A stretch of 36,690 bases of DNA from Magnetococcales bacterium. GTDB taxonomy: Bacteria > Pseudomonadota > Magnetococcia > Magnetococcales > DC0425bin3. The notes below the pieces were generated by a model that worked only from the letters and a program-made list of their open reading frames with translations, searched no databases and was not told the DNA's origin. Where the stretch lies: NCBI GenBank assembly GCA_015228935.1, contig JADGCO010000023.1:13029-49718 (forward strand), written 5' to 3'. Below are positions 3,951-26,317 of this stretch, one piece after another. Numbering within the stretch: the first letter of the stretch is position 1; each line of letters begins with the position of its first letter. The position numbers and the translations under genes were made by a program.

Positions 3951-4727
3951 ATGCATATGCGCAACTGGGTAGCCTCTTTCATGACCGTCCTGGTCCTCCT
4001 TGGCGCGGTAAGTCTCCACGCCGATGAAGCTCAATATCTGGCCTGGCGGCAGCAACAGGATTGGGACTCCCTGTTCCAGGCCTATCTCAAGGAAGATACC
4101 TACGCCCTGATCGGCATGGGAAACTGCCATGTCTACTCCGAACCCGGGTGCAAGCAGGACATTCTCTCCGGAACGAATCTCTGGTCCAAGGCCGCCGCCA
4201 AGGGTGAGTATTGGCTTTTCAACCGGTTGGTGATGACCCTTGCCGAAGGCACCGACGTGCGTGGCGTGGATCCCGGCCAACTGCCCATGTGGAAACCTCT
4301 CTGTTCGGTGGCGGTCCTGATCCGTGACCGGTTTCAGGAGCAGATGATCGAGAGCAAAGGCAAGGCCTATCTGGGGTTGTGTTTCATGGCCGGCAGGGAG
4401 GGAATCAGCAAGGACCCGACCTACGGCTTTGCACTCCTGGATTGGGCCGCCACCCAGGACCGTTTGCCCGATGCTGCCGATATTCTGGCCGACATTTACA
4501 ATAATGGTCACTACGGCGTCGGCATCGACAGGATCAAATCCGCCTATTATAAAAATCTTGCCGCCAGCCATCGTCAATATTTGGAAGCGGTCTATCGTGC
4601 CCGGATACAGGCGGCCAATCCCGGCCAGACACAGCCTGCCATTCCCGGCCAAACACAACCTGCCAATCCTGAATACGGCATCGACGCCTGGGATCCCAAC
4701 AATCCCATGCCAGGCAAAGGAAAATAA
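3951..4727 (+). CDS. Exported Sel1/TPR-like repeat protein of unknown function
   Basis: A 258-residue protein with a clear signal peptide (MHMRNWVASFMTVLVLLGAV, cleavage likely after SLHA). The mature part is helical. YLGLCFMAGREGISKDPTYG and ALLDWAATQDRLPDAADILA resemble Sel1/TPR repeats, in which small residues recur in paired helices. It is likely periplasmic, and Sel1 proteins usually act as adaptors. The C-terminal tail has a short tandem repeat (NPGQTQPA, then IPGQTQPA, then NPEYG), which is a 24-bp DNA repeat. The start at 3951 has GGAG in front of it; an ATG at 3957 is also possible. The next gene begins 3 nt after its stop, so the two are probably co-transcribed. No enzyme function can be assigned. 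Confidence 0.7.
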   Translation: MHMRNWVASFMTVLVLLGAVSLHADEAQYLAWRQQQDWDSLFQAYLKEDTYALIGMGNCHVYSEPGCKQDILSGTNLWSKAAAKGEYWLFNRLVMTLAEGTDVRGVDPGQLPMWKPLCSVAVLIRDRFQEQMIESKGKAYLGLCFMAGREGISKDPTYGFALLDWAATQDRLPDAADILADIYNNGHYGVGIDRIKSAYYKNLAASHRQYLEAVYRARIQAANPGQTQPAIPGQTQPANPEYGIDAWDPNNPMPGKGK

Positions 4728-4730
4728 ACC

Positions 4731-4925
4731 ATGCAGCAAAATGTCGGAGGAATGGACCGTGCATTGCGGATTGGGGTGGGCGTGATTCTGTTGGCTTTGG
4801 TGTTTGTCGGTCCCAAAACCCACTGGGGATGGATCGGCCTGCTGCCACTGTTGACCGGTCTGGGCAGCTTTTGCCCCGCCTACGCGCTGTTCGGCATCAA
4901 TACCTGTCCAACCGGGAAATCCTGA
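4731..4925 (+). CDS. DUF2892 (YgaP-type) small inner-membrane protein
   Basis: A 64-residue protein with the compact DUF2892 layout: a short polar N-terminus with NVGGMDRALRIGVGVILLAL, a first membrane helix (about 14-28), a WGWIGLLPLLTGL second helix (about 32-45), and an ending FCPAYALFGINTC. These proteins sit in the inner membrane, sometimes fused to rhodanese domains; their role is poorly known. The two cysteines in FCPAY and NTCP are typical of the family. The gene follows the Sel1-like gene with 3 nt between stop and start. Its stop codon is overlapped by the start of repeat copy B. Confidence 0.85.
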   Translation: MQQNVGGMDRALRIGVGVILLALVFVGPKTHWGWIGLLPLLTGLGSFCPAYALFGINTCPTGKS

Positions 4926-4982
4926 GAGGCTGTCCATTAACCCTCGGATAAAAAAATTGGGAAGAAAGATTTTATTGGGGCT
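4924..4982 (+). repeat. Modular intergenic repeat, copy B (module 1 only)
   Basis: It matches module 1 of copies A and C: gaggctgtccattaaccct, then an A-rich stretch, then aagattttattggggct. The GC-rich hairpin module found in A and C is absent; the sequence changes abruptly after 4982. The repeat begins at the stop codon of the DUF2892 gene. Confidence 0.8.
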
Positions 4983-5028
4983 AGTGTAGAGTGGAGGAGA
5001 TGTCTCAACCCTGTCGTGGGAGGTAATT

Positions 5029-7233
5029 GTGCCCGACGCCGGTTCCGACGAGCTGACCGATCAGTTGCAGCAGCAAGCCGTGGCATGGAGCAGTGCCTTC
5101 GCCAAAAGCGACCACTTCGCGTCACTGACCGATACGGAACGCCATTGGGCTGCGTCGATCATCCTGGAATTTGTCCAGGCCATGCATCTCGTCCACAATC
5201 GCCCGGTGCGCCGCTGGACCGCGCAAAGCATCACGGAGTGCTGCACCCGGACCCTGCCTGCCCGGGTTACGGCACCGGAGGATTTTTTTCAGGCCGTGGC
5301 CCCGGTCCTGAGCGGATTGATTCTCCATCTGACTGCCGAGGAACTCCTGACCAATGGTCCGGTTTTGATCCGTGCCCTGCAACGCGCCCGGCCACGCATC
5401 GTGGCCCAGGCCTCCGATCCCGACAACTGGAACATGACCAAAACCCTGTTGACCCACGCCGTCAACAAGGGACACGATCCAAAAAATCCCCATGACATGG
5501 AAGCGTTCCTGGACCGGATCCACGCCGGGGAAATTCCCGAAATTCTGCCCTTTCCCGGTCGTCATGGCCGTCGTGCGTCCCCCCCGGCCATCGTCAAACA
5601 ACTCCCGGTCAGCGCAAAAAATCCCCAGGTGTTCGAGCAGTTGCAAACGATGGTCGGGCGGATCGCCCAGGATCTGGCCAAAAACAGGTCACCCGATCTG
5701 ACCGACGAGCTGGTCACCCTTCTTGAGCAACATCCCAACCTGCTCCTGGACATGTTGTCCATGCTGGCAACCCGGATGCAAAACGAAGAGGAAGTCGGCG
5801 ATGATCCGACCCTGGAAGCCTGGTTCATGATTCTGGGTTTTCATCTGGAACAGATCCGGTATGGCATGGAACGAAATTTTACCTGGGCCATGCAGCTCAT
5901 TGCCACCTTTCAGACGGAAGCGGCCCGCATGGCCCGGGAAGAGTCGTTATCCCCCATGCTGCTGAATGCCGTCATCTCCTCACTCCATGAAGCCCGCCTG
6001 CAACCAGCACCGGAACTTCTGGATGTCTACGAGAGTGTCATGGAAAAAGCGGTCCCGACCCAGTTGCCGACCGCCAGGGAGATGCAGGGAATCCTTGACT
6101 CCATCTTTGCCGATGCCGACGACGATGTGTTCCAGGTCCATGCCCAGATGGATCACATGTTGCGCATGGCCCCTCCGGAGATGCAAACCGTTCTCGTCCA
6201 GGAGCTGGAGCGGTTGCAACGCCCGACCATCACGGAAGCCCTGGCCCTGTTCGTCGTGCATCCGCAGGCGGTGCTGCGGCAAATCGCCCGGGACTCCCTG
6301 CTCCGGATTTCTGCCGGAATCACGCCGGATACCCTGCGCCGCCTGATCGTGTTGCGCAACTGGATTCCCCCGGCGGAAAGACCCCCCCTCGACCAGACGA
6401 TCCGCACAGCCCGGCAGCGCGGTGTCCCTTGCGCCCAATGGCCGGGAGGGGAGAGCGTGGTCAACCGCTATGCCCTGACCATGGATGGCGGAGGGGCCAT
6501 GGGTTTTTTCCTGCTCTCCCGGACCGCCCGCCAGCAACGACTCTCCTCGGTCCTGGCCAAGAGCCGGGTCGGCATTCTGGACGCCTGGAGCGGTGAAGCC
6601 CTGTCACAATCCACCATGCGGCGGCAAGTCCGCGACCAGATCACGGCGGAAGGCTTTCAAACCGTATCCGCCCTTTTTCCCACCCTGGTCGTCAAACACC
6701 ATCTGCAAGTCGGACTGGAACAAGGCCAAACCCCGCCAGCCGGACTGTTGCAGGTTGCAGAGACCGTTGCCGCCACCGACTGGCAACCCGACCCCGTCAA
6801 TCTGGCCGAGTGGCTGCAAACCATCCGTGACGCCGCCCACATGCAAAAAAACACCACGGACAAGGCCATCATTCAGTCCAGCCACATCTGGTCCCGGGAA
6901 GTGGATATCGTCCAATCCTGGTACATGGAAAGTCAGGCCCTGGTGGATTATCTGCATGCCCACCGCCATGAGCGTCCAGCCACGCTCAGGGCCGGGATCA
7001 TCAAGGAATTTTTCGAGCCGGCCCGGCAGGAGTGGGCGGAGCGGTTTGCCTGGACCGCCCTGTGGCTCCATGAGCAGCCACCCGGCAAAAACAGACAGCC
7101 TCCCCCCCTGGCCGCCCATTTTGCGCTGCTGGGCCAGATTCTTCTCCAGGAGTACCCCCTGGCCAGGATTCCCTTCATGGAACTCATGGCCATCCGCACC
7201 ATCGAGGCCCTTCAGGCCATGCCGCCCTTCTGA
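5029..7233 (+). CDS. Large helical protein of unknown function (734 residues)
   Basis: The start is a GTG with GGGAGG 5 nt upstream. The protein looks soluble and almost entirely alpha-helical, rich in Leu, Ala, Gln and Arg; no signal peptide, membrane segment or catalytic motif is evident. Residues 60-165 faintly recall the helical domain found with SEC-C or pRiA4b-ORF3-like proteins, including the signature DPDNWNMTKTLLTHAVNKG near residue 130. That resemblance is weak and from memory. The middle (about 230-450) could be HEAT-like helical pairs. The gene stands alone between repeat copy B and the decarboxylase operon. It has good coding character and no frame break. I do not recognise a function. 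Confidence 0.6.
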   Translation: MPDAGSDELTDQLQQQAVAWSSAFAKSDHFASLTDTERHWAASIILEFVQAMHLVHNRPVRRWTAQSITECCTRTLPARVTAPEDFFQAVAPVLSGLILHLTAEELLTNGPVLIRALQRARPRIVAQASDPDNWNMTKTLLTHAVNKGHDPKNPHDMEAFLDRIHAGEIPEILPFPGRHGRRASPPAIVKQLPVSAKNPQVFEQLQTMVGRIAQDLAKNRSPDLTDELVTLLEQHPNLLLDMLSMLATRMQNEEEVGDDPTLEAWFMILGFHLEQIRYGMERNFTWAMQLIATFQTEAARMAREESLSPMLLNAVISSLHEARLQPAPELLDVYESVMEKAVPTQLPTAREMQGILDSIFADADDDVFQVHAQMDHMLRMAPPEMQTVLVQELERLQRPTITEALALFVVHPQAVLRQIARDSLLRISAGITPDTLRRLIVLRNWIPPAERPPLDQTIRTARQRGVPCAQWPGGESVVNRYALTMDGGGAMGFFLLSRTARQQRLSSVLAKSRVGILDAWSGEALSQSTMRRQVRDQITAEGFQTVSALFPTLVVKHHLQVGLEQGQTPPAGLLQVAETVAATDWQPDPVNLAEWLQTIRDAAHMQKNTTDKAIIQSSHIWSREVDIVQSWYMESQALVDYLHAHRHERPATLRAGIIKEFFEPARQEWAERFAWTALWLHEQPPGKNRQPPPLAAHFALLGQILLQEYPLARIPFMELMAIRTIEALQAMPPF

Positions 7234-7541
7234 AGACAGGTTGCGTTCTTCCGAAAAAGGAATTTTTGCACATCTTTAATGCCCACAGAAGAAGGGCAAT
7301 GGTGTTTTTTTTGAATTGCAAGCATATGAAAAACAAGCAAGCCAGCATAAAAATATCAAGATTGGCGACATGGGGGATTGCACACACCCGGGTTTGTATA
7401 TACTGTTTCGCAAATTTTACAAACTGAAGAGTCGGAATGGTGCGCTGTAGACACAGCGTGGCGGATCTTCAGTTGGAACCACATGGGCCGACCTCACGCG
7501 AGACGGCTTCCCCCCAGCTTCGTAAACGGGAACCAAGGGAC
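7234..7541 (+). promoter_or_regulatory. Upstream region of the mmd operon with a weak promoter candidate
   Basis: 308 bases without a supported gene. It is AT-richer than its surroundings. A TTGCAC (7378-7383) and TATACT (7399-7404) with a short 15-bp spacer could be a promoter for the operon. A frame open from 7437 merges into mmdA, but the first 35 codons lack family resemblance and the ATG at 7542 has AAGGG just upstream. I see no RNA gene or clear terminator here. Confidence 0.35.
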
Positions 7542-9095
7542 ATGAGCATATCCCAAAAAGCCCTGGATACTCTCCAGAAACGCCGCGAGGCCGTGTTGAC
7601 GGCCGGCGGCAAGGAAAAAGTCGCCCAGCGACATGCCAAAGGTCAACTGACTGCCCGGGAACGTCTGAATACCCTGTTCCAGGAGGGAACGTTCCAGGAA
7701 ATCGGCACCCACATCCAGCACACCTGTACGCACTTCGGCATGACCGGCAAAGATATTCCGGCAGACGGCGTGGTTGTGGGCACCGGATTTGTCGATAACC
7801 GGCAGGTGGCTGCGGTCAGCCAGGATTTCAATGTGGTGGCCGGAACGCTCGGCAAAATGCATGCCCAAAAGATTGTCCAGGCCATGCAATATGCCCAACG
7901 CATGGGAATTCCCGTCGTGGCCTTCAAGGACTCCGGCGGTGCCCGCATCCAGGAAGGGGTGGATGCCCTCTCTGGATATGGCCAGGTGTTTTACCAGAAC
8001 GTCATTCTCTCCGGGGTTGTCCCCCAGATTGCGGTGATTCTGGGACCCTGCGCCGGGGGGGCCTCCTATTCGCCGGCCCTGATGGACTTCATCATCATGA
8101 CCCGGCAGAATGCCCAGATGTTCATCACCGGCCCCCAGGTGATCAAGGCCGTCACGGGCCGGGACTGCACCATGGACGAAATCGGCAGCGCCGAAATTCA
8201 TGCCACGGTCAGCGGCAATGTCCACGTCGTGGCCGATGATGACCAGCATGCCATTCAACTGGTCAAGCAGCTCCTTGGTTACCTCCCCTCCAACAACACC
8301 CACGATCCCCCACACAAACCGTGGGCCGATCTGGATCTCTCCGATGACCCGGAACTGAACGGCATGGTCCCGGATGATCCCAAAGCCCCCATGGATGTCA
8401 AAAAAATCATCGCCCGGCTGGTGGACAACGGAGAATATTTTGAAATTCACGCCGGTTTTGCCCGCAACCTGGTGGTCTGCTTTGCCCGGATCCAGGGCAT
8501 CGTGGTCGGCATCATCGCCAACCAGTCCATGGAACAGGCCGGCTGTCTCGACATCGACTCCTCGGACAAGGGGTCCCGCTTCATCCGCTTCTGCAACGTC
8601 TTCAACATTCCCGTGGTCAACCTTGTCGATGTGCCGGGCTTTCTGCCCGGTGTCGAGCAGGAACGCGGCGGCATCATTCGCCACGGTGCCAAGATGCTCT
8701 TTGCCTACGCCTCGGCCACCGTGCCCAAACTGACCATCATTCTGCGCAAGGCCTATGGCGGTTCATACCTGGCCATGTGCAGCCCGGAAATGGGTGCCGA
8801 TGTGGTCTACGCCTGGCCCACCGCCGAAATCGCCGTCATGGGTGCCGAAGGGGCGGTCAATCTGCTCTACGGCAAGGAATTGAAGGACGCCGCCGACAAA
8901 AAGGCCAAAACCGCCGAGCTGGTCCAGGATTATCGGGACAATTTCGCCTCCCCCTACCTTTCGGCAGCCCGGGGCTATGTCACCGATATCATCGAACCCG
9001 CACAAACCCGGGCCTACCTGGCCCTGGCCCTGCGCAAGTCAATGAACAAGCGCGAACTGCGGCCCCTCAAAAAGCACGGTAACATTCCTCTTTAG
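7542..9095 (+). CDS. mmdA: Methylmalonyl-CoA decarboxylase alpha subunit (carboxyltransferase)
   Basis: A 517-residue carboxyltransferase of the PccB/MmdA family. It moves the carboxyl group from methylmalonyl-CoA to the biotin of the carrier subunit. The crotonase-fold halves are clear: FKDSGGARIQEGVDALSGYG and GPCAGGASYSPALMDFIIM in the N-terminal half, then VPGFLPGVEQERGGIIRHGA and GGSYLAMCSPEMGADVVYAW in the C-terminal half. The length fits MmdA and PccB. The company of a gamma-type small subunit, a biotin carrier and an OadB-type sodium pump favours the decarboxylase over acetyl- or propionyl-CoA carboxylase. No biotin carboxylase gene is nearby, which also fits a decarboxylase. The start at 7542 was chosen because the MSISQKALDTLQKRREAV opening is typical of the family. 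Confidence 0.9.
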   Translation: MSISQKALDTLQKRREAVLTAGGKEKVAQRHAKGQLTARERLNTLFQEGTFQEIGTHIQHTCTHFGMTGKDIPADGVVVGTGFVDNRQVAAVSQDFNVVAGTLGKMHAQKIVQAMQYAQRMGIPVVAFKDSGGARIQEGVDALSGYGQVFYQNVILSGVVPQIAVILGPCAGGASYSPALMDFIIMTRQNAQMFITGPQVIKAVTGRDCTMDEIGSAEIHATVSGNVHVVADDDQHAIQLVKQLLGYLPSNNTHDPPHKPWADLDLSDDPELNGMVPDDPKAPMDVKKIIARLVDNGEYFEIHAGFARNLVVCFARIQGIVVGIIANQSMEQAGCLDIDSSDKGSRFIRFCNVFNIPVVNLVDVPGFLPGVEQERGGIIRHGAKMLFAYASATVPKLTIILRKAYGGSYLAMCSPEMGADVVYAWPTAEIAVMGAEGAVNLLYGKELKDAADKKAKTAELVQDYRDNFASPYLSAARGYVTDIIEPAQTRAYLALALRKSMNKRELRPLKKHGNIPL

Positions 9096-9136
9096 AGTGC
9101 GAACCCAAGCGGAATGAACCCAGGAGTGCTGAAATC

Positions 9137-9478
9137 ATGAGCATGTTGGATGTCATCCTGAAATCCCTGACCGCCTACGCCCTGCTGATCGTCATCGGCT
9201 TTCTCGCAGCCTATATGATCCAGATCATCGTCAAGGTCCTGTCAGCCCAGGGTCAGCAGGCTGCGGTCGCGATCAAGCCCGAAACGCGGTTACCCGCAAC
9301 GACAGTTGTAGCAACAAGTGGTCCACCCACGCATCATCTGGTGGCCATCGCCGCTGCCGTCTATACCATGAATCGTCGGGTGCGTATCGTTCACCTCAAA
9401 TCCGACAGCGGCGTTGACGTTCCCTGGACTTCGGTCGGCAGGTCTCTGCATCAGGCCTCCCACCAGGTCCGCCGTTAA
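9137..9478 (+). CDS. Sodium-pump decarboxylase gamma/delta subunit (OadG/MmdD family)
   Basis: A 113-residue protein with one N-terminal membrane helix (about residues 14-36, LLIVIGFLAAYMIQIIVKVL) and a polar tail. This is the OadG/MmdD layout: a small membrane subunit that holds the carboxyltransferase and carrier to the membrane pump. The C-terminal half (HLVAIAAAVYTMNRRVRIVHL) matches the conserved terminal segment of this family. It lies 41 nt after mmdA and 45 nt before the biotin carrier gene. The start at 9137 has AGGAG some 10 nt upstream; an ATG at 9143 is an alternative. Confidence 0.8.
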   Translation: MSMLDVILKSLTAYALLIVIGFLAAYMIQIIVKVLSAQGQQAAVAIKPETRLPATTVVATSGPPTHHLVAIAAAVYTMNRRVRIVHLKSDSGVDVPWTSVGRSLHQASHQVRR

Positions 9479-9523
9479 GTTGAAACTCCCCTTATCCAGG
9501 AATCCACCAGGACGGAAATTGCG

Positions 9524-9931
9524 ATGGAAAGAAAACTGCGAATCACCATTGAAGGGACCCAGTACGAAGTCCATGTCCAGGACATCACGGAGGGCGAAAA
9601 CACCCTCTATCCCGCGCCCGGCATGCGGGCCGATGCTCCCCCACCCAAGCCATCGACGCCCGCCAAGGCACCCGCCCCTGCCAAGGCAGCCGCACCCGCT
9701 GCTGGTGGTGGCGGTGGTGAAACCGACCGCCTCGCTCCCCTGGGTGGCGTGGTCGTCAAGGTCCTCGTCACCGAAGGCCAGCAGGTGGCCAAAGGCGACA
9801 AGGTCGTCATCCTGGAAGCCATGAAACAAAAAACCGAAATCCTCGCGCATCGCGCCGGAACGGTCAAAGACATTGCCTGCAAAGAGGGGGATGCCGTGGA
9901 AATCGGCGTCCGCCTGATGTCCATCGTCTGA
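9524..9931 (+). CDS. mmdC: Biotin carboxyl carrier subunit of the decarboxylase
   Basis: A 135-residue carrier. Residues 1-35 form a short beta-rich segment, followed by a flexible Pro/Ala linker (about 38-60, PKPSTPAKAPAPAKAAAP) and a Gly run, then a biotinyl domain (about 67-135). Lysine 101 in EAMKQ is the predicted biotinylation site, 34 residues from the C-terminus as usual; most relatives have EAMKM, so Gln after the lysine is a small deviation. Biotin carries CO2 from the alpha subunit to the beta subunit in the membrane. The gene lies between the gamma-type subunit and mmdB. Confidence 0.9.
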   Translation: MERKLRITIEGTQYEVHVQDITEGENTLYPAPGMRADAPPPKPSTPAKAPAPAKAAAPAAGGGGGETDRLAPLGGVVVKVLVTEGQQVAKGDKVVILEAMKQKTEILAHRAGTVKDIACKEGDAVEIGVRLMSIV

Positions 9932-10094
9932 CAAAACAGAGCCGAAAAGAAAACAAACGGCGATGTGACGCAACCCCTCTGCAACACCCTGGCAGCCGTG
10001 CCGAACCTTTTGACAGCATGAATTGCGCGGTGGTTCAGAGGGGGTTTCAGTCGGCGGCATCGTGTAGAAATCGCTGCCCTTGGGAGACTTCAAG

Positions 10095-11336
10095 GTGAAC
10101 CTCGACCTCCTCAATATGTTTCAAGGCATTGCCACTCTGGTCGATGCCTTCCAGCACAATCCGAAAATCGCCTTCATGCGGATTTTCCTCATCGCCCTGG
10201 GCGCTCTGCTGATGTACCTGGGCAAAAAAGGGGTACTGGAACCCCTGCTGATGATCCCCATGGGTCTGGCCATGTCCACCATCAATGCGGCGGTCATGTT
10301 CGTCCCCGACTACATGAATGTCCCCGCCCAGGGCAAGCATGGCACCCTGTTCGTCAATCCCCTGATTTCCGAAACGAATCAGTTGATGAACATTGTCCAG
10401 ATCGACTGGCTGCAACCCATCTACACCTTCACCTTCTCGAACGGTCTGATCGCCTGTCTCGTCTTCATGGGGATCGGCTCGCTCCTGGATGTCGGTTTCG
10501 TCATGGCCAGACCGTTCCAGAGCATGTTCCTGGCCATCTGCGCCGAGTTGGGAACCGTCATCACTCTCCCCATCGGAGTCATGATGGGTCTCTCTCCCCA
10601 GGCTTCCACGGCCACGGCCATCATCGGCGGTGCCGACGGTCCCATGGTGTTGTTCAGCTCGCTGCTCCTGGCCAAGGAGTATTTTGTCCCGATCACCGTC
10701 GTGGCCTATCTCTACCTGGGCCTGACCTATGGTGGATATCCCTATCTGGTCAAAATGCTCGTGCCGCGCCATATTCGTGGCATCGCCATGCCCATCGAAA
10801 AGCGCATGCCCATCACCCCGGACCAAAAGATCATCTTTTCCGTCATCACCTGCGTGGTCTTGTCGTTGCTCTTCCCGGTGGCCGGGCCTTTGTTCCTGTC
10901 GCTCTTTCTGGGCGTGGTCATTCGTGAATCGGGACTGGTGGATTTCATCAAGCTTTTCGAAGGTACCTTCCTCTATGGAGCCACCTTTTTCCTGGGCATG
11001 ACCCTGGGAGTCCTGTGCGAGGCCGGTACACTCCTGAATCCGGATGTCCTGATCCTGCTCGTTCTTGGTGTCACGGCCCTGACCTTCTCGGCCATCGGCG
11101 GCATCCTGGGAGGCTATGTTCTCTACTTCCTGAACGACAAAAAGTTCAATCCGGTGATCGGCATCGCCGCCGTAAGCTGCGTGCCCACCACAGCCAAGGT
11201 GGCCCAAAAACTGGTCTCCGAAGTCAACCCGGAAGCCATGATCCTGCCCCAGGCCCTGGGAGCCAACATCAGCGGCGTCATCACCACAGCCATCCTGACC
11301 GGCGTGTTGATTACCCTCATGGGTGGCATCCAATAA
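10095..11336 (+). CDS. mmdB: Methylmalonyl-CoA decarboxylase beta subunit (Na+-pumping membrane subunit)
   Basis: A polytopic inner-membrane protein (413 residues) of the OadB/MmdB/GcdB family, which decarboxylates carboxybiotin and exports Na+. The hallmark IIGGADGPMVLF holds the essential aspartate of the ion path. Other family segments are PLLMIPMGLAM, FMGIGSLLDVGFVMARP, AELGTVITLPIGVMMGL and, at the end, AAVSCVPTTAKVAQKL and ALGANISGVITTAILTG. I chose the GTG at 10095, with GGGAG 10 nt upstream, over a TTG at 10080. It follows mmdC after a 163-nt gap, long for an operon, so a second promoter could lie there (a TTGACA at 10012 has no clear -10). A strong terminator follows. Confidence 0.92.
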   Translation: MNLDLLNMFQGIATLVDAFQHNPKIAFMRIFLIALGALLMYLGKKGVLEPLLMIPMGLAMSTINAAVMFVPDYMNVPAQGKHGTLFVNPLISETNQLMNIVQIDWLQPIYTFTFSNGLIACLVFMGIGSLLDVGFVMARPFQSMFLAICAELGTVITLPIGVMMGLSPQASTATAIIGGADGPMVLFSSLLLAKEYFVPITVVAYLYLGLTYGGYPYLVKMLVPRHIRGIAMPIEKRMPITPDQKIIFSVITCVVLSLLFPVAGPLFLSLFLGVVIRESGLVDFIKLFEGTFLYGATFFLGMTLGVLCEAGTLLNPDVLILLVLGVTALTFSAIGGILGGYVLYFLNDKKFNPVIGIAAVSCVPTTAKVAQKLVSEVNPEAMILPQALGANISGVITTAILTGVLITLMGGIQ

Positions 11337-11390
11337 CAACACCATTCCTTGCCGGCACCTTGCGGCAACGGGTTGGGGTGAACAGTCAGT

Positions 11391-11427
11391 ACGGCGGTCG
11401 CTTTTTTTCGAGGCGACCGCCGTTTTT
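11391..11427 (+). terminator. Rho-independent terminator of the mmd operon
   Basis: A perfect 11-bp stem, acggcggtcgc (11391-11401) with gcgaccgccgt (11413-11423), followed by TTTTG and TTTT. It lies 55 nt after the mmdB stop. Confidence 0.9.
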
Positions 11428-11480
11428 GTTTTACACTTTCTGGCGATGATTTTCATCCCAGGTTGCAATCCATAAGAATC

Positions 11481-12789: not shown

Positions 12790-12820
12790 ATTTTTTCACA
12801 TTTTGTTTCAGGAGCAGCTC

Positions 12821-13216
12821 ATGGCCTACGGCAGTCGTCACGTTCCCACCGAACTCCGGCAAATCAACAAGGAACGTCTGGTCCGCATCGTCTGGAACAC
12901 CGGCGAGCAGATGGAACTGAGCATGGAATTTTTGCGGGTGGTCTGTCCCTGTGCCGATTGTCGTGGTCACACCCCGGAGCAACGCAAGCTCATTGACGGC
13001 AAACAGGATGTCACCATCACGGCCATCACGCCGGTCGGTCGTTATGCGGTCAAGATTGCCTTCAGTGACAATCACGATACCGGGGTCTATTCCTGGGAAA
13101 CCCTCTGGGAAGTCGGCACCGAAAAAGAGACCCTGTGGCAAACCTATCTGGAAGATTTGCAACGCGCCGGCAAACGCCGCAAACCCAACGTATTTCCCAT
13201 CAAGGCAATCAAATGA
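12821..13216 (+). CDS. DUF971 (gamma-butyrobetaine hydroxylase-like N-terminal) protein
   Basis: A 131-residue protein with the DUF971 pattern: RIVWNTGEQMELSMEFLRV, then CPCADCRGH (cysteines in CPCxxC plus CRGH, a likely zinc site), ITPVGRYAVKIAFSDNHDTG and YSWETLWEV. The domain is found alone in many bacteria and at the N-terminus of carnitine-synthesis dioxygenases; its role in bacteria is uncertain, with proposals around Fe-S cluster work. The start at 12821 has GGAG 8 nt upstream. It is the last host gene before the prophage remnant; its tail is Lys/Arg-rich (RAGKRRKPNVFPIKAIK). Confidence 0.88.
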   Translation: MAYGSRHVPTELRQINKERLVRIVWNTGEQMELSMEFLRVVCPCADCRGHTPEQRKLIDGKQDVTITAITPVGRYAVKIAFSDNHDTGVYSWETLWEVGTEKETLWQTYLEDLQRAGKRRKPNVFPIKAIK

Positions 13217-13282: not shown

Positions 13283-14263
13283 TTAACAATTTTCTTGTGA
13301 CAGGTAATTTATCTTTAATCGCCTATAATATATATGGTATAACACCACCAGAACATTCACAGATTTGATAATTATATTTTCACCTCTACCATCAACTATT
13401 TTATACTGACTATTTTTTACGTCAACTTTATCTAGAAACCTTTCTGCGGACGCCAGAGAATCAAATTTTAATGATTCATTATTATTTGTTACAATGATTG
13501 GCATTTCCATGGATCCACCACGCACCAGACAATATACACCATCATGTTTTATAGATGCTTTAGACACAAGACTATCAATAGACATGTCGCCAGAGATATC
13601 CTTGAGACCCAAATATTTTGTTAATAACTTTATGAGTTTATCTGAGCAATCCAAATCATCTCCTTTTTCTATGACTACTACTTCTATCTCTACATAAGAC
13701 AAACCAAAGTTTGTTCTCCTTTTTATCTTTTTTGTTGTTAAAATTAATTTTTTACCGTTGGCATCATAACAAACATACGCTGAATTATGGACATCAATCG
13801 CCTCAAGGCATGACTCGGCATATTCAATGGAATCATATAGAGAGATATCACCCTGTTCGCTGACAATAATCGGCAATTTGATTTGCATCATTTTTTCCGA
13901 ATAATATGACGCCTGATATTTATTGATCGATTCTGAAACGAGATATTTCAATAATTTACCAGAACTACCATAAAATTCATATTGAATACTGCTTGTGTTT
14001 CCGATATATTCTTTAAGAATCTCAATAAATCTGGACACACAGTTAATACACTTCCACTCTTCGATACAATCAATCACCGCACCAACACGTATGAACCCAA
14101 AAAAAATTTTCACGTTTTGTTTGTATCGAACAAGAGTCAGTCTGGTTCCATCCGCATCAAAGGCCTCATGTGCGTCTGAAAATTTTAATAGTTTTAGAAC
14201 ATCTCCAGATGAAAAACAGATTGAAAGACCAAATATATTTTTTATGAACACAGGCAGTTTCAT
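13283..14263 (-). CDS. AT-rich gene of unknown function with three internal repeats
   Basis: A 326-residue protein. The DNA is far richer in A and T than anything around it, pointing to separate acquisition. Three divergent copies of one unit are visible. Unit 1 starts KLPVFIKN (residue 2). Unit 2 starts KLPIIVSEQGDISLYDS (129) with AESCLEAIDV and YDANGKKL. Unit 3 starts EMPIIVTNNNESLKFDS (253) with AERFLDKVDV and VDGRGENI. Units 1 and 2 also share a C-terminal helical half ending EYIG or KYLG. There is no signal peptide or catalytic motif. I chose the ATG at 14263, with GGGAG upstream, because the earlier ATG at 14329 would read through a terminator hairpin. It sits at the prophage edge, downstream of the tail fibre genes but separately transcribed, as morons usually are. 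Confidence 0.65.
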   Translation of the reverse strand: MKLPVFIKNIFGLSICFSSGDVLKLLKFSDAHEAFDADGTRLTLVRYKQNVKIFFGFIRVGAVIDCIEEWKCINCVSRFIEILKEYIGNTSSIQYEFYGSSGKLLKYLVSESINKYQASYYSEKMMQIKLPIIVSEQGDISLYDSIEYAESCLEAIDVHNSAYVCYDANGKKLILTTKKIKRRTNFGLSYVEIEVVVIEKGDDLDCSDKLIKLLTKYLGLKDISGDMSIDSLVSKASIKHDGVYCLVRGGSMEMPIIVTNNNESLKFDSLASAERFLDKVDVKNSQYKIVDGRGENIIIKSVNVLVVLYHIYYRRLKINYLSQENC

Positions 14264-14278
14264 ATGCACTCCCAAAAA

Positions 14279-14311
14279 TTCGGTCCCTTTCTCTTTTTTG
14301 AAAGGGACCGA
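14279..14311 (-). terminator. Terminator between the tail operon and the AT-rich gene
   Basis: A perfect 11-bp stem, cggtccctttc (14281-14291) with gaaagggaccg (14300-14310). On the minus strand it is followed by AATTTTTG. A second, weaker hairpin (accacaa/ttgtggt) lies at 14345-14362, and a 12-bp palindrome atgatcgatcat lies at 14328-14339. Confidence 0.8.
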
Positions 14312-14373
14312 AAGGTCATGAGCATCCATGATCGATCATTTCATACCACAAAATCTTGTGGTGACCATATCAT

Positions 14374-14571
14374 TCATGGTTCCTGCATGACAAACGGATT
14401 GATTTGATTGACCAGATTTCCCTGCTCGTCCCGCATGGCGAGCCACTCGTCGATGGCGACACGGTGCCATGTCTGGCAAGGCCAGGTGCAGTAGGTGATC
14501 TGGCCATCGACGGCATGGATGACGATTTGATTTTCTTCTGCATTCGTAAAGCTGATCTGGGCGATATTCAT
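14374..14571 (-). CDS. Small tail-fibre-associated protein
   Basis: A 65-residue protein starting MNIAQISFTNAEENQIVIHA, with GAGGAG just before its ATG. It lies 7 nt after the tail fibre stop and ends the tail operon. Small proteins in this place are often fibre assembly factors or tail caps. The Trp-rich middle (CTWPCQTWHRVAIDEWLA) resembles short phage proteins next to fibres, but I cannot name a family. Confidence 0.6.
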   Translation of the reverse strand: MNIAQISFTNAEENQIVIHAVDGQITYCTWPCQTWHRVAIDEWLAMRDEQGNLVNQINPFVMQEP

Positions 14572-14578
14572 AAGCTCC

Positions 14579-16159
14579 TCACAGTTCGGCATCAAAGGTA
14601 ATGAAACCATTACTGTTTGTAAAGCCAGCCAATACGCAATGCCCTGTCGTAAAAGGAGAACCTGGGCAGTTGAGATCCAGACTGATTCTTGATGTTGTCG
14701 CTTGAATATTGGCACTCCCATTACAAGATACACCATCCACATTGAGATCAGACAAAGAGCTGAACGTGACAGATGGTGCCACTCGCATTTTCGTTCGATA
14801 GTGTATGACACCTCTGAAGGTGTTGGTGCTGACAACTTGCCCAACAGCGAATGCACCACCTCCTTCCTGTGCCAATTTGGAGAAATACCGTTCACATTCT
14901 GACTGCTCCGCAGCGACAGACTTTTTCAAGAAGGATGTTGCCGAACTCCCAATTTCCAACTGAACGTTAGCGATGTCCAGATTCCCTGTCCAACTCCAAC
15001 CCCAAAAATTGATCTTGAGGCTGGATCCTGACCCGATTGTTTTACCACTGAGTGACGGCAGGGTTGCCGTCAAAACCACACGCACCCAGTCGGATGGAAG
15101 AGTCAAGGTCAATTCTGTTGCCCCGACCAACACGGATGCAGAACCACCAGAACCAAAATCCTGGTACATGATCAAGCTGAAAGGATTTGAAGTTGACGTG
15201 GCCGGACCTCTGACATACACGGAAACAGTGACACTTTTCCCGACAAGTGTCTGGACATTTTCGATTTTGTAATACCAGCCGCACCCTCCAACATTATTGT
15301 TACTCACGATATGCAGGTAATATTGCGGTTCACCCGGGACGGCTGTCTGACCAAGAGTGAATTCCTGGCGGGAGGCTGTCGCCGTGACATCGTGCGTGGT
15401 ATAAAACCAATGGCGATCCGCTGTCAATACGTGGTTGTTCCCACTGCTCCAGGAAGTTCCCCGCTGCCAGATGTCAAAACCGCCATTGATGACGAAATTT
15501 TTCCCGGCACCAGGATCCGGCTGAACAAGTTCATATCCGGTTTCGGCGGCATTGACAAACAGGCTTTTACCGAAATCACCTGTTGTGATGGGCGGCAGGT
15601 GCAGTCCTGCCGCATAGCCAGCAGCCTGGGCGGCTGAATTGGCAGCATTGGTGGCAGCGGTTTGGGCCTGGGAAGCGGAGGTTGCCGACGCATCGGCGGA
15701 TGCGGCTGACTCGGCAGCCGATGCGGCAGCCGCTACCACATCGCCCGGCAGGCCATTCATGATCTGGAACCAGCCACTGCTCGCATTATAGCGCAGGGAG
15801 ATGATCGTGTTGGCCACGATATCCCCTGCGGTCAGGTCTGAACCATCCAGGCGACGGATTGGCTTGACACCAAGCCCATTGACATTGATGGTGCTGGCCC
15901 CGGTATTGGTATGGGCCGCCTGGAATTGCACTTCCTGGCCCGTGACATACCCGGAAGGTGCCAGGGGCAGTGCCACAACATGGGCATTCACCGCTCCCGT
16001 ATCCTGGGCAAAACATATCTTGCCTTTTTTGATCAGATCAACATCGGGAAGTTTGGTCAGGCCGGTTTCGATCTGATCGAAAATTTCATTCAGGGCGGTA
16101 CAGCGTGCCGTGGTGTGTTCCACCAGACGGTTGGTAAAATTAAAATAGTCGTTGCTCAT
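14579..16159 (-). CDS. Phage tail fibre protein
   Basis: A 526-residue fibre. The N-terminal part (1-140) carries FNFTNRLVEHTTARCTALNE and a carbohydrate-type beta segment with TNTGASTINVNGLGVKPIRR, typical of the virion-attached part of phage fibres. Then comes an Ala/Ser-rich trimeric stalk (about 145-190, AAAASAAESAASADASATSA). The C-terminal half starts NFVINGGFDIWQRGTS and looks like a jelly-roll receptor-binding domain (about 220-400) seen in many prophage fibres. The start overlaps the stop of the 687-residue gene (ATGA), so translation is probably coupled. A start at 16324 would add a random-looking stretch read out of frame through the upstream gene. Confidence 0.85.
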   Translation of the reverse strand: MSNDYFNFTNRLVEHTTARCTALNEIFDQIETGLTKLPDVDLIKKGKICFAQDTGAVNAHVVALPLAPSGYVTGQEVQFQAAHTNTGASTINVNGLGVKPIRRLDGSDLTAGDIVANTIISLRYNASSGWFQIMNGLPGDVVAAAASAAESAASADASATSASQAQTAATNAANSAAQAAGYAAGLHLPPITTGDFGKSLFVNAAETGYELVQPDPGAGKNFVINGGFDIWQRGTSWSSGNNHVLTADRHWFYTTHDVTATASRQEFTLGQTAVPGEPQYYLHIVSNNNVGGCGWYYKIENVQTLVGKSVTVSVYVRGPATSTSNPFSLIMYQDFGSGGSASVLVGATELTLTLPSDWVRVVLTATLPSLSGKTIGSGSSLKINFWGWSWTGNLDIANVQLEIGSSATSFLKKSVAAEQSECERYFSKLAQEGGGAFAVGQVVSTNTFRGVIHYRTKMRVAPSVTFSSLSDLNVDGVSCNGSANIQATTSRISLDLNCPGSPFTTGHCVLAGFTNSNGFITFDAEL

Positions 16160-22289: not shown

Positions 22290-23757
22290 TCAATATCCAG
22301 CCACAGTGTCGGCTGGCATGACCGAGGCCACCATGCGCCGGGAATGGTTTTGTATTTTGGCCAGCTTGAGACCACTCAACACCAGGTAGCGCGTGGCATC
22401 CAGCAGATGGTCATGCTCCTTGACGATACGGCCCTGCTCATCCCGCCGGTAGAGGCGATACTCCGATAACCAGTTTTGCATGGTTTTGAAAATGCGCAGG
22501 CGCTGGCTGGAGAGGCGTTCCCAAACCGCATGAATGCCCGCCTCCACGGCATTGTCCGCCGGTTCCAGATGCAACCCCAGATCCCGATAGGCTTGCAGCA
22601 GGGATTCTCCATCCTTCTGGCTGCGCCCGCGTGCGGCAGGATCGATCACACCCGGAATCCAATCCCCCCGGGCACGCACGGCAGCGGCATGCACCGACGG
22701 TTCAGCCTGACCTCGATAATGCTCGGAGTAGAGATAGACCACATCGGCCTCCCGGTCCCAGGCCCCCCAAACCGCCGCAGTCCGTTGCCAACCCACATCC
22801 AGGGCATAAACTTTGGGCCACCATTGGGGAATTTCCATGGGATCCACGACGATTTCATCCTCCGGAACCGGATAGATGGCCCCACTGCCCAGGGAAGGAA
22901 CTCCCTTGGAGCGGGCCGCCCTTTGATGCGGCGGAATGGAAGCGAGCAGCTCCTGTTTGTCTTTTTCGGACAGGTGGGGTGCATCGTTCCAATCCGCCAT
23001 GATGACGAATGGTTTCATGTTTCCGGCTTCCTTCCATACGATTTCATGTTTCCGGCAACCGCCCATGGGGCAGGAAATGTCGCACCACCTCCGACATGCC
23101 TGACAGGGGCGTAAAGGTACAGATCATCAGACCATTGGTCGTCATGGTGCGGATCAGGCATTCGGCATAGATCGACAGGGGAGGTTCCTCGTCCAGCCAG
23201 ACCACATCCTGCTCGGTCCCCTGAAATGATTTCCGTTTCTGATCATAGCTTTTCAGGACCAGACGACTTTCACCCCCCTGGCGATGGTGGACAGTGATGG
23301 TTTCCACGGCATCCGGAACACTGCCGGAACGATTTTTGATATCGGCGATGCAGGTGGCTGGAATCAGGCCGGTCCCGACATCGCTGGGTGGTCCAAGCAG
23401 TTTCATTTGAATGATATCCCGGACCGTCTGGGTGGTATCCCCGGCGGCCCAGGCCCGGATCGGACCGGTAAAGCGTCGTCCCGGCCACCATTCCGGATAG
23501 AGACCCGTCAAATGCAACGTGACTTCATAACCGCCCACTCCTTCTGTCTTGCCGATACGGTTGGCTGCCAGCATCAACCGTTCCCGATTGGTTTTTCCTC
23601 CGGAAAAAAAAGCCATGTGTTTTGGATACTTGTCCCGTGCCAAGGGGCCGGAATCGGGATAAAAACTCTCCAACCGGCGTGTGCGACGGCGACGCTCTTT
23701 TTCCTTAAGGATCAGGGTCACCAGATGTTTCTTTGATAAACCGCTCGATATGGTCAT
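22290..23757 (-). pseudogene. Terminase large subunit, broken by a +1 frameshift
   Basis: Packaging ATPase and nuclease in two frames. The first part (23757-23044, 237 residues) has a Walker A-like AANRIGKTE at residue 64 and a Walker B DVVWLDEEPP at 185, then stops at TGA (23046-23044) after HGRLPET. The second part continues one base over, reading EIVWKEAGNMKPFVIMADWN and on through GAIYPVP, YALDVGWQRTAAVWG and GVIDPAA (nuclease acids) to 22290. Dropping the T at 23046 would give one protein of 488 residues, a normal size. This may be a real mutation, a sequencing error, or a frameshift at the stop. A 15-bp direct repeat (23013-23027 and 23042-23056) spans the site. The start overlaps terS by 53 nt. 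Confidence 0.8.
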
Positions 23758-25192: not shown

Positions 25193-25379
25193 CCAAAAAA
25201 AAAGCCCGCACCGGTTGCCCGGAGCAGGCCTGAATCAACCCGCCCAAAGGCGGGTCACCAAAAACACAAAAACCCTTCGCAAAAAGTGCCGAAGGGTTCG
25301 CTCATCTGGACGAAGAGCAAACTCGCCCAATGTGGGTGCAAGTTCTACCCTGTTTTGAGCCCCCCCTCAAGAAAAAAAA
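25193..25379 (-). repeat. 187-bp stacked-hairpin repeat, copy 1, in front of the lysozyme gene
   Basis: Nearly identical to 26132-26317 (three C/T differences and a one-base change in an A run). On the minus strand it holds, in order: a small ttgag/ctcaa hairpin (25355-25370), a 9-bp stem aacccttcg/cgaagggtt (25271-25298) followed by TTTGTGTTTTT, a 7-bp stem acccgcc/ggcgggt (25238-25255), and a long GC-rich hairpin (25204-25229) followed by a run of nine T. At least two are convincing intrinsic terminators. Confidence 0.9.
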
Positions 25380-25512: not shown

Positions 25513-25797
25513 CTACACTCCTCCTTTTGCAACAATCAATATCCAAAACAGGATATGGACGAACATAAAAATTATGGATCCAACCAGAATACTTTCAGGT
25601 ATTGCCTTTGAAATCAGAATTTTTGATATAATCTTGACTGACAATACAAATAACAAATAAAATAAACCAAATAATCTTAATAGTGTTTCCTGTATTGTGA
25701 TTGCAAGAAAATTATCAAAAGCACCAATGGCAAGTAAAGAATAAAGAAGCCATGGCAAGGTTACCCCCAATCCTGTTCCAAAATCACTTATTGTCAT
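25513..25797 (-). CDS. Three-TM membrane protein of unknown function (moron-like)
   Basis: A 94-residue, AT-rich hydrophobic protein starting MTISDFGTGLGVTLPWLLYS. It has about three membrane helices (10-27, 36-56 and 70-90, the last FMFVHILFWILIVA). I chose the ATG at 25797, with GGAG about 7 nt upstream, because the earlier ATG at 25830 lies inside a 15-bp stem hairpin. The gene lies alone between the two 187-bp repeats, together with a broken small gene. Small membrane proteins in such places are sometimes superinfection-exclusion factors, but nothing in the sequence proves that. Confidence 0.55.
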   Translation of the reverse strand: MTISDFGTGLGVTLPWLLYSLLAIGAFDNFLAITIQETLLRLFGLFYLLFVLSVKIISKILISKAIPESILVGSIIFMFVHILFWILIVAKGGV

Positions 25798-25815
25798 CTT
25801 GCGCTCCGCTTTTAT

Positions 25816-25852
25816 ATACCTGCCGTCCATAAAAAAAATGGACGGCAGGTAT
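25816..25852. repeat. Perfect 15-bp inverted repeat with A/T loop
   Basis: Arms atacctgccgtccat (25816-25830) and its complement (25838-25852) with a seven-A loop. It lies just upstream of the three-TM gene. On the plus strand it is followed by TTTTAT, on the minus strand by ATATAAAAG. It could be a terminator of the broken upstream gene or an operator. Confidence 0.85.
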
Positions 25853-26131: not shown

Positions 26132-26317
26132 CCAAAAAAAAGCCCGCACCGGTTGCCCGGAGCAGGCCTGAATCAACCCGCCCAAAGGCGGGTCACCAAA
26201 AACACAAAAACCCTTCGCAAAAAGTGCCGAAGGGTTCGCTTATCTGGACGAAGAGCAAATTCGCCCAATGTGGGTGCAAGTTTTACCCTGTTTTGAGCCC
26301 CCCCTCAAGAAAAAAAA
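26132..26317 (-). repeat. 187-bp stacked-hairpin repeat, copy 2
   Basis: The direct-repeat partner of 25193-25379, offset by 939 bp. All hairpins are kept; the three substitutions are C in copy 1 and T in copy 2 on the plus strand. Its final T tract ends 23 nt before the GTG of the broken small gene, so both copies sit directly 5' of a minus-strand gene. Confidence 0.9.

Follow-up and report, generated by a model that had tools for sequence, protein, structure and literature searches.

A candidate three-unit polyimmunity gene at the edge of a Magnetococcales prophage

The window (the whole stretch of 36,690 nucleotides that was analysed, from contig JADGCO010000023.1 of a Magnetococcales bacterium) contains a minus-strand open reading frame between the tail-fibre end of a prophage and a gene of the chromosome. 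The features of this region are listed in Table 1. Inspection of the sequence identifies the frame as a real gene, running for 326 codons without interruption and with no stop codons at the joins between its units. The GC content of the gene is 33.0%, and that of the rest of the window is mostly 55–60%. The frame is open up to position 14329 on the minus strand. The ATG at 14263 is the likely start because a Shine-Dalgarno-like GGGAG is found at 14269–14273, 5 nt ahead of it. At its other end, the gene stops approximately 70 bp from the stop codon of the chromosomal flanking gene, a 137-aa ORF that we take to be of the DUF971 type. The gene had been described, from its sequence alone, as an AT-rich reading frame beside the tail fibre genes, and both statements are borne out, since a 65-aa ORF and a tail fibre gene adjoin it. 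Its description as a terminator-insulated unit holds on one side only. An intrinsic-terminator-like stem is located upstream on the minus strand (14312–14279), and no terminator was found downstream of the gene. The terminator search returned two sites against a mean of 0.9 in shuffled sequences. A promoter scan of the gene gave a single weak promoter-like match (9/12) at 14393–14364.

Table 1. Window coordinates of the three-unit gene, its units and the flanking features
Feature	Position	Strand	Basis
Chromosomal flanking gene, 137-aa ORF	12803..13216	+	kept in 4/4 family genomes
Three-unit polyimmunity-type gene, 326 aa + stop	13283..14263	-	ORF, unit comparison, outside-only profile
Unit 3, aa 253-326, N-terminal half of unit only	13286..13507	-	outside-only profile E=8e-9
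Unit 2, aa 126-252, full length, best conserved	13508..13888	-	outside-only profile E=1.2e-22
Unit 1, aa 1-125, diverged	13889..14263	-	outside-only profile E=1.6e-4; unit 1-unit 2 score 84
Intrinsic-terminator-like stem, 13 pairs + T-run, between tail-fibre side and gene	14279..14312	-	
65-aa ORF adjoining the gene; also kept in the prophage block of the sister species	14374..14571	-	
Prophage tail fibre gene	14579..16159	-	phrog_4492 E=6.6e-50

The three units were compared with one another by local alignment using BLOSUM62. The scores of 84 for units 1 and 2 and 88 for units 2 and 3 were reached by none of 2000 shuffles, and the score of 24 for units 1 and 3 was reached by 1381 of 2000. Units 1 and 3 are therefore connected only via unit 2 and the wider family. 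A profile constructed from 13 outside homologues, with no window sequence included, detects three domains in the window protein, and the best E-value among 1000 shuffles was 0.18. The three predicted copies are thus related to one another by sequence, with the qualification that unit 3 is only of half length and covers profile positions 1–53. The sequence pattern originally ascribed to all three units is retained in part. The K-L-P start and the D-.-.-G are common to all of them, and the D-S and the AE..L..(I/V)DV.N are found in units 2 and 3 only. At this place unit 1 has the sequence GDVLKLLKFSDAHEA and is four residues short. The helical second half is common to units 1 and 2, as had been noted, and unit 3 ends before it. 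Over its N-terminal half, unit 2 shares 46% identity with an outside immunity protein and only 29% and 33% with units 1 and 3, respectively. A tree of 16 units is mostly unresolved, with units 1 and 3 on long branches. Because unit 3 is of half length and unit 1 is without core residues, one or both of these units may be dead.

The whole window protein matched no family in Pfam or NCBIfam and gave no match in PADLOC. The best matches in PHROG were phrog_21008 (E = 0.1) and phrog_12126 (E = 0.19), and none was better than E = 0.1. When 16 members of the family were searched against Pfam and NCBIfam, only scattered single-member matches were obtained (best E-values of 0.0041 and 0.02). The domain is therefore unrecognised in the libraries searched, in agreement with the original prediction. 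A tblastn search of phages with the window protein provided four matches, all at chance level, and viral contigs scanned singly with P0001, P0002 and the immunity protein of locus L015 (Nitrosomonas communis) gave none. The structure of unit 2, folded alone from an alignment covering only this unit, was modelled using AlphaFold2 with a pLDDT of 86.8 and a pTM of 0.78. The model contains strands at 7–11, 14–18, 39–41, 46–58 and 64–74, followed by two C-terminal helices. Two short helices are also predicted, the first of which begins directly after the D-S. Neither PDB nor BFVD yielded a standout fold match; the best E-value in Foldseek was 0.078. The best alignment from VIA-align (Z of 4.9, rmsd of 2.5) extends over 46 residues of the C-terminal helices. 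This lack of a match does not amount to a new fold.

The key match to the window protein, a weak one (E = 0.09), was obtained by tblastn against plasmids. It is a 117-aa gene of Methylomonas sp. DH-1 that begins within the stop codon of an Rhs gene, the two sharing a single base. When the Methylomonas protein was combined with the window units in a profile, matches at E ≤ 0.01 were obtained in 5 of 299 genomes, namely the genome of the window itself, G115, G031, G020 and G182. The match in G182 (L007, E = 0.003) was judged unrelated by eye; from the look of its sequence it is presumably a coiled-coil/J-domain-like ORF. A stretch of Neisseria chromosome (E = 0.4) was dropped as it is without annotation. 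In G115, G031 and G020 the unit-like ORF begins on the stop codon of a toxin-domain ORF, and these upstream ORFs end in the same conserved stretch as the Methylomonas Rhs protein. Two separate tandem immunity genes are found behind the toxin in G031. Unit matches were obtained in 3 of 48 genomes of the order, in 5 of 398 genomes drawn across the phylum and in 2 of 369 genomes of the class of G115. No multi-unit member of the family was found besides the window gene, and the three-unit form therefore rests on one genome.

Three further loci were observed. In G020 (L006, 1501–1938) the immunity frame leaves the family after approximately 50 codons and continues into repeat-like sequence; the toxin is also shortened, and this is a decayed toxin-immunity pair. 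A single-unit orphan is found in G292 (L041), with no toxin upstream within the stretch read. On the reverse complement of L040 (G515), a frame of 119 aa at 266–625 has the N-terminal pattern of the units and differs in its second half. It may represent a remote branch of the immunity superfamily, and no toxin is in view.

The C-terminal domain encoded upstream of the unit-like genes is characterized by the motif FR.APfGNRTG..G..PHYHRR...PGQGIGRHRPWE, also written FR.APfGNRTG...GQGIGRHRPWE. It is usually carried on Rhs proteins, sometimes in prophages and also on a plasmid. The toxin domain is approximately 70 aa in length and the immunity protein approximately 115 aa. In an alignment of 12 sequences, A26, P27, G29, R31, H41, H43, G57, H63, R64 and P65 are invariant. 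No family was matched in Pfam or NCBIfam, apart from one scattered Pfam match (E = 0.044) in 1 of the 12 members, and no relative was found in PDB by sequence. The structure model of this domain is unreliable (pLDDT of 58) and too poor for a fold search.

A query composed of the toxin domain only (A3, three sequences) was used to search for further loci and returned 10 from genome contigs and 1 from viral contigs. Two of these (L018 and L019) are G115 and G031 again. The nine new loci originate from Duganella, Aquabacter, Ramlibacter, Stenotrophobium, Nitrosomonas, MAGs of Bdellovibrionaceae, Proteobacteria and Planctomycetota, and a viral contig. A unit-like ORF begins no more than 70 nt past the toxin stop codon in all nine. 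Since unit-like genes directly follow the toxin in these loci, the units are assigned as immunity proteins by gene neighbourhood. A profile built from the three window units only was then run against 1014 ORF segments of 14 loci, with the duplicate and window loci left out. Fourteen matches were detected at E ≤ 0.5; 13 of these are immunity-position ORFs and the other is L007. Eight of the nine independent loci were matched at E ≤ 0.022, the weak links being L021 (E = 0.013) and L013 (E = 0.022). The contig of the remaining locus, L016, ends after approximately 30 residues of the ORF; it gave no match at E ≤ 0.5, and its link was made by eye. The positional link between unit and toxin has been tested both ways because the window-only and outside-only profiles each find the other side.

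In all, relatives are located behind C-termini of toxin type at 13 distinct loci, and many of these C-termini belong to Rhs genes that are not phage-borne. Judged by its place, the C-terminal domain is a putative toxin: it is the variable end of Rhs proteins with a small gene behind it, which is the arrangement described in PMC10539506 and PMC3482391. Some members of the family are carried by phages. The toxin and two immunity genes of G031 have a tail-fibre gene (phrog_9942, E = 7e-11) on one side and genes for virion proteins on the other, and the pair of G020 comes after virion-type genes. In the viral contig L021 a portal gene (phrog_156, E = 7.5e-144) lies upstream of the pair. Successive ORFs past this portal gene (3977–11478) share their N-termini (EYRRRWGWTD..., SGPK.LPKMLFEEDYARRLEQERD...) and differ in their C-termini, and several of them are followed by a small ORF. 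This row has the appearance of a phage-borne polymorphic toxin array.

The window gene is not encoded directly downstream of a toxin, unlike the paired members of the family. A search for the toxin in its own genome, which is in 197 contigs so that a toxin could sit in a contig gap, gave no match; the best hit (L022, E = 6.7) is noise, with an unrelated translation. The unit profile matches only the three-unit gene in the same genome. Toxin matches among the same 48 genomes of the order are those of G031 and G020, together with one in G038 (E = 0.0047) that is located in a chemotaxis-receptor-type ORF and was judged by eye to be unrelated and false. With no toxin detected beside the gene or in the genome, the window gene is therefore an orphan relative and not half of a pair.

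The same prophage block is found beside the same chromosomal gene in a sister species of the same genus, G003 (tail fibre, E = 9e-160; a 687-aa protein, E = 0; and others). The slot occupied by the three-unit gene in the window contains 226 bp at 61% GC in G003. The gene is therefore cargo, a moron as had been predicted, that is, an extra gene of foreign composition that is missing from the corresponding site of a related prophage. The empty slot implies either gain of the gene in the lineage of the window or its loss in that of G003, and the composition of the gene favours gain. An attachment site splitting the gene was considered and rejected, as no repeat longer than 11 nt exists between the prophage edges. 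No unit-like frame that might be a missing half of the gene was seen at the right prophage edge. The prophage itself looks like a remnant: the gene for the terminase large subunit is broken into two ORFs that overlap in different frames (22290–23757), and the window ORFs that were searched included neither a portal nor a capsid gene. A direct repeat of 184 bp, 98% identical, is present at 25196–25379 and 26134–26317. Between its copies lies an AT-rich patch carrying a membrane-type ORF of 105 aa (25513–25830, minus strand), which may be a second cargo slot on the opposite side of the prophage.

The window gene thus encodes three immunity domains, one of them truncated, in one polypeptide with no associated toxin gene. 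The reading that we favour, with a probability of about 0.7, is that the product is an orphan polyimmunity protein that would act in the cytoplasm, binding and blocking incoming toxins of the family. The gene would have been gained as AT-rich cargo between the tail-fibre end of the prophage and the chromosome, bringing three tandem copies of the immunity domain in one homotypic, toxin-less protein. Such binding and blocking would most likely be the work of each intact unit, and above all of unit 2, and the carrier would survive the toxins of its neighbours while encoding no such toxin itself. Binding and neutralisation of the toxin are attributed to the units by guilt by association, from the immunity position of their relatives. 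The units may differ in target. It is a tentative and rather improbable extension that the three units have diverged against variants of one toxin family, carried on Rhs proteins and by rival prophages, and that lysogens are shielded accordingly.

The main rival explanation, which we consider somewhat improbable, is that the gene is a decaying array, the remnant of separate tandem immunity genes that became fused and truncated and in which at most unit 2 works, units 1 and 3 being debris. The truncation of unit 3 at profile position 53, with the gene ending so close to the stop of the chromosomal gene, is consistent with decay, as are the four residues missing from unit 1, the long branches of units 1 and 3, and a host prophage that itself looks defective, with its terminase split. 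The two separate tandem genes of G031 and the greater identity of the N-terminal half of unit 2 to an outside protein than to units 1 and 3 also point in this direction. Against this stand the 326 codons kept open at 33% GC, the Shine-Dalgarno-like site and the joins that are free of stop codons. A moron for anti-phage defence or superinfection exclusion, with phage and not toxins as its target, would suit an AT-rich cargo gene at a prophage edge. It is nonetheless very unlikely given the empty PADLOC search and the location of the relatives behind secreted-toxin-type domains, and of the original suggestion of immunity or defence only the immunity half is retained. A role as a tail-fibre accessory in phage assembly or adhesion, suggested by the adjoining tail-fibre gene and 65-aa ORF, is less probable still, since the syntenic block of G003 is without the gene, relatives are found behind toxin-type C-termini at 13 distinct loci, many of them with Rhs genes outside phages, and PHROG gave nothing better than E = 0.1.

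Returning to the orphan polyimmunity reading, the original prediction knew of no family with such an architecture, and this is answered by the polyimmunity proteins of Zhang et al. (2012, PMC3482391). These contain several immunity domains per polypeptide, are usually without an adjacent toxin gene and were proposed to protect against non-kin toxins; Imm73 sometimes occurs in two or three tandem copies. The window gene likewise is multi-domain with no toxin gene alongside. It differs in being prophage-edge cargo rather than part of an immunity operon, and its domain is without a Pfam or NCBIfam model. SMDB11_2280, an orphan immunity protein of an Rhs system in Serratia marcescens Db10, protects against the toxin of a foreign strain (PMC10539506). 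It also is an immunity gene without its own toxin whose relatives lie directly behind Rhs C-terminal toxins. Unlike the window gene, it is a single unit, lies downstream of an Rhs-immunity pair and is experimentally proven, and the toxin is an NADase.

Polymorphic toxin immunity carried by prophages is described for Bxa/Bsi/BAH in Bacteroides (PMC11699363), where the toxin is kept, unlike here. The prophage cassettes near attL/attR in M. abscessus (PMC9934374) also place immunity near a prophage end; they keep a toxin with the immunity gene, whereas the window has the three-unit immunity gene only. The esaG/tsaI strings of Staphylococcus (PMC9484751) are several non-identical paralogous immunity copies, like the window units. 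They are separate genes of a type VII system rather than fused units. Polyimmunity proteins, orphan Rhs immunity and prophage toxin-immunity cassettes are therefore already in print (PMC3482391, PMC10539506, PMC11699363, PMC9934374). The toxin-immunity family, which has no name in the libraries searched, and one of its members with three units, carried as prophage cargo, appear to be new. Motif strings of the family retrieved only unrelated text from the literature and none were found in the accessible text of PMC3482391. A literature search pairing Magnetococc with polymorphic toxin returned one paper, on an endosymbiont.

These results give a testable role to a moron that had been classed as unknown. 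They also expose a small toxin-immunity family on Rhs proteins, a plasmid and prophages, with loci ranging from Proteobacteria to a MAG of Planctomycetota. A toxin-less three-unit gene carried as phage cargo provides a direct test of whether orphan arrays of immunity domains protect polyvalently or are in decay. If the units are indeed a polyvalent shield, lysogens would be protected against weapons made by neither the phage nor the host. Taken with the toxin-immunity pairs located by virion genes in other Magnetococcales prophages, such a shield would indicate prophage-borne toxin warfare in which immunity arrays travel as cargo. The host of this phage remnant, a magnetotactic-type bacterium, is probably shielded from toxins of its competitors that it does not make itself.
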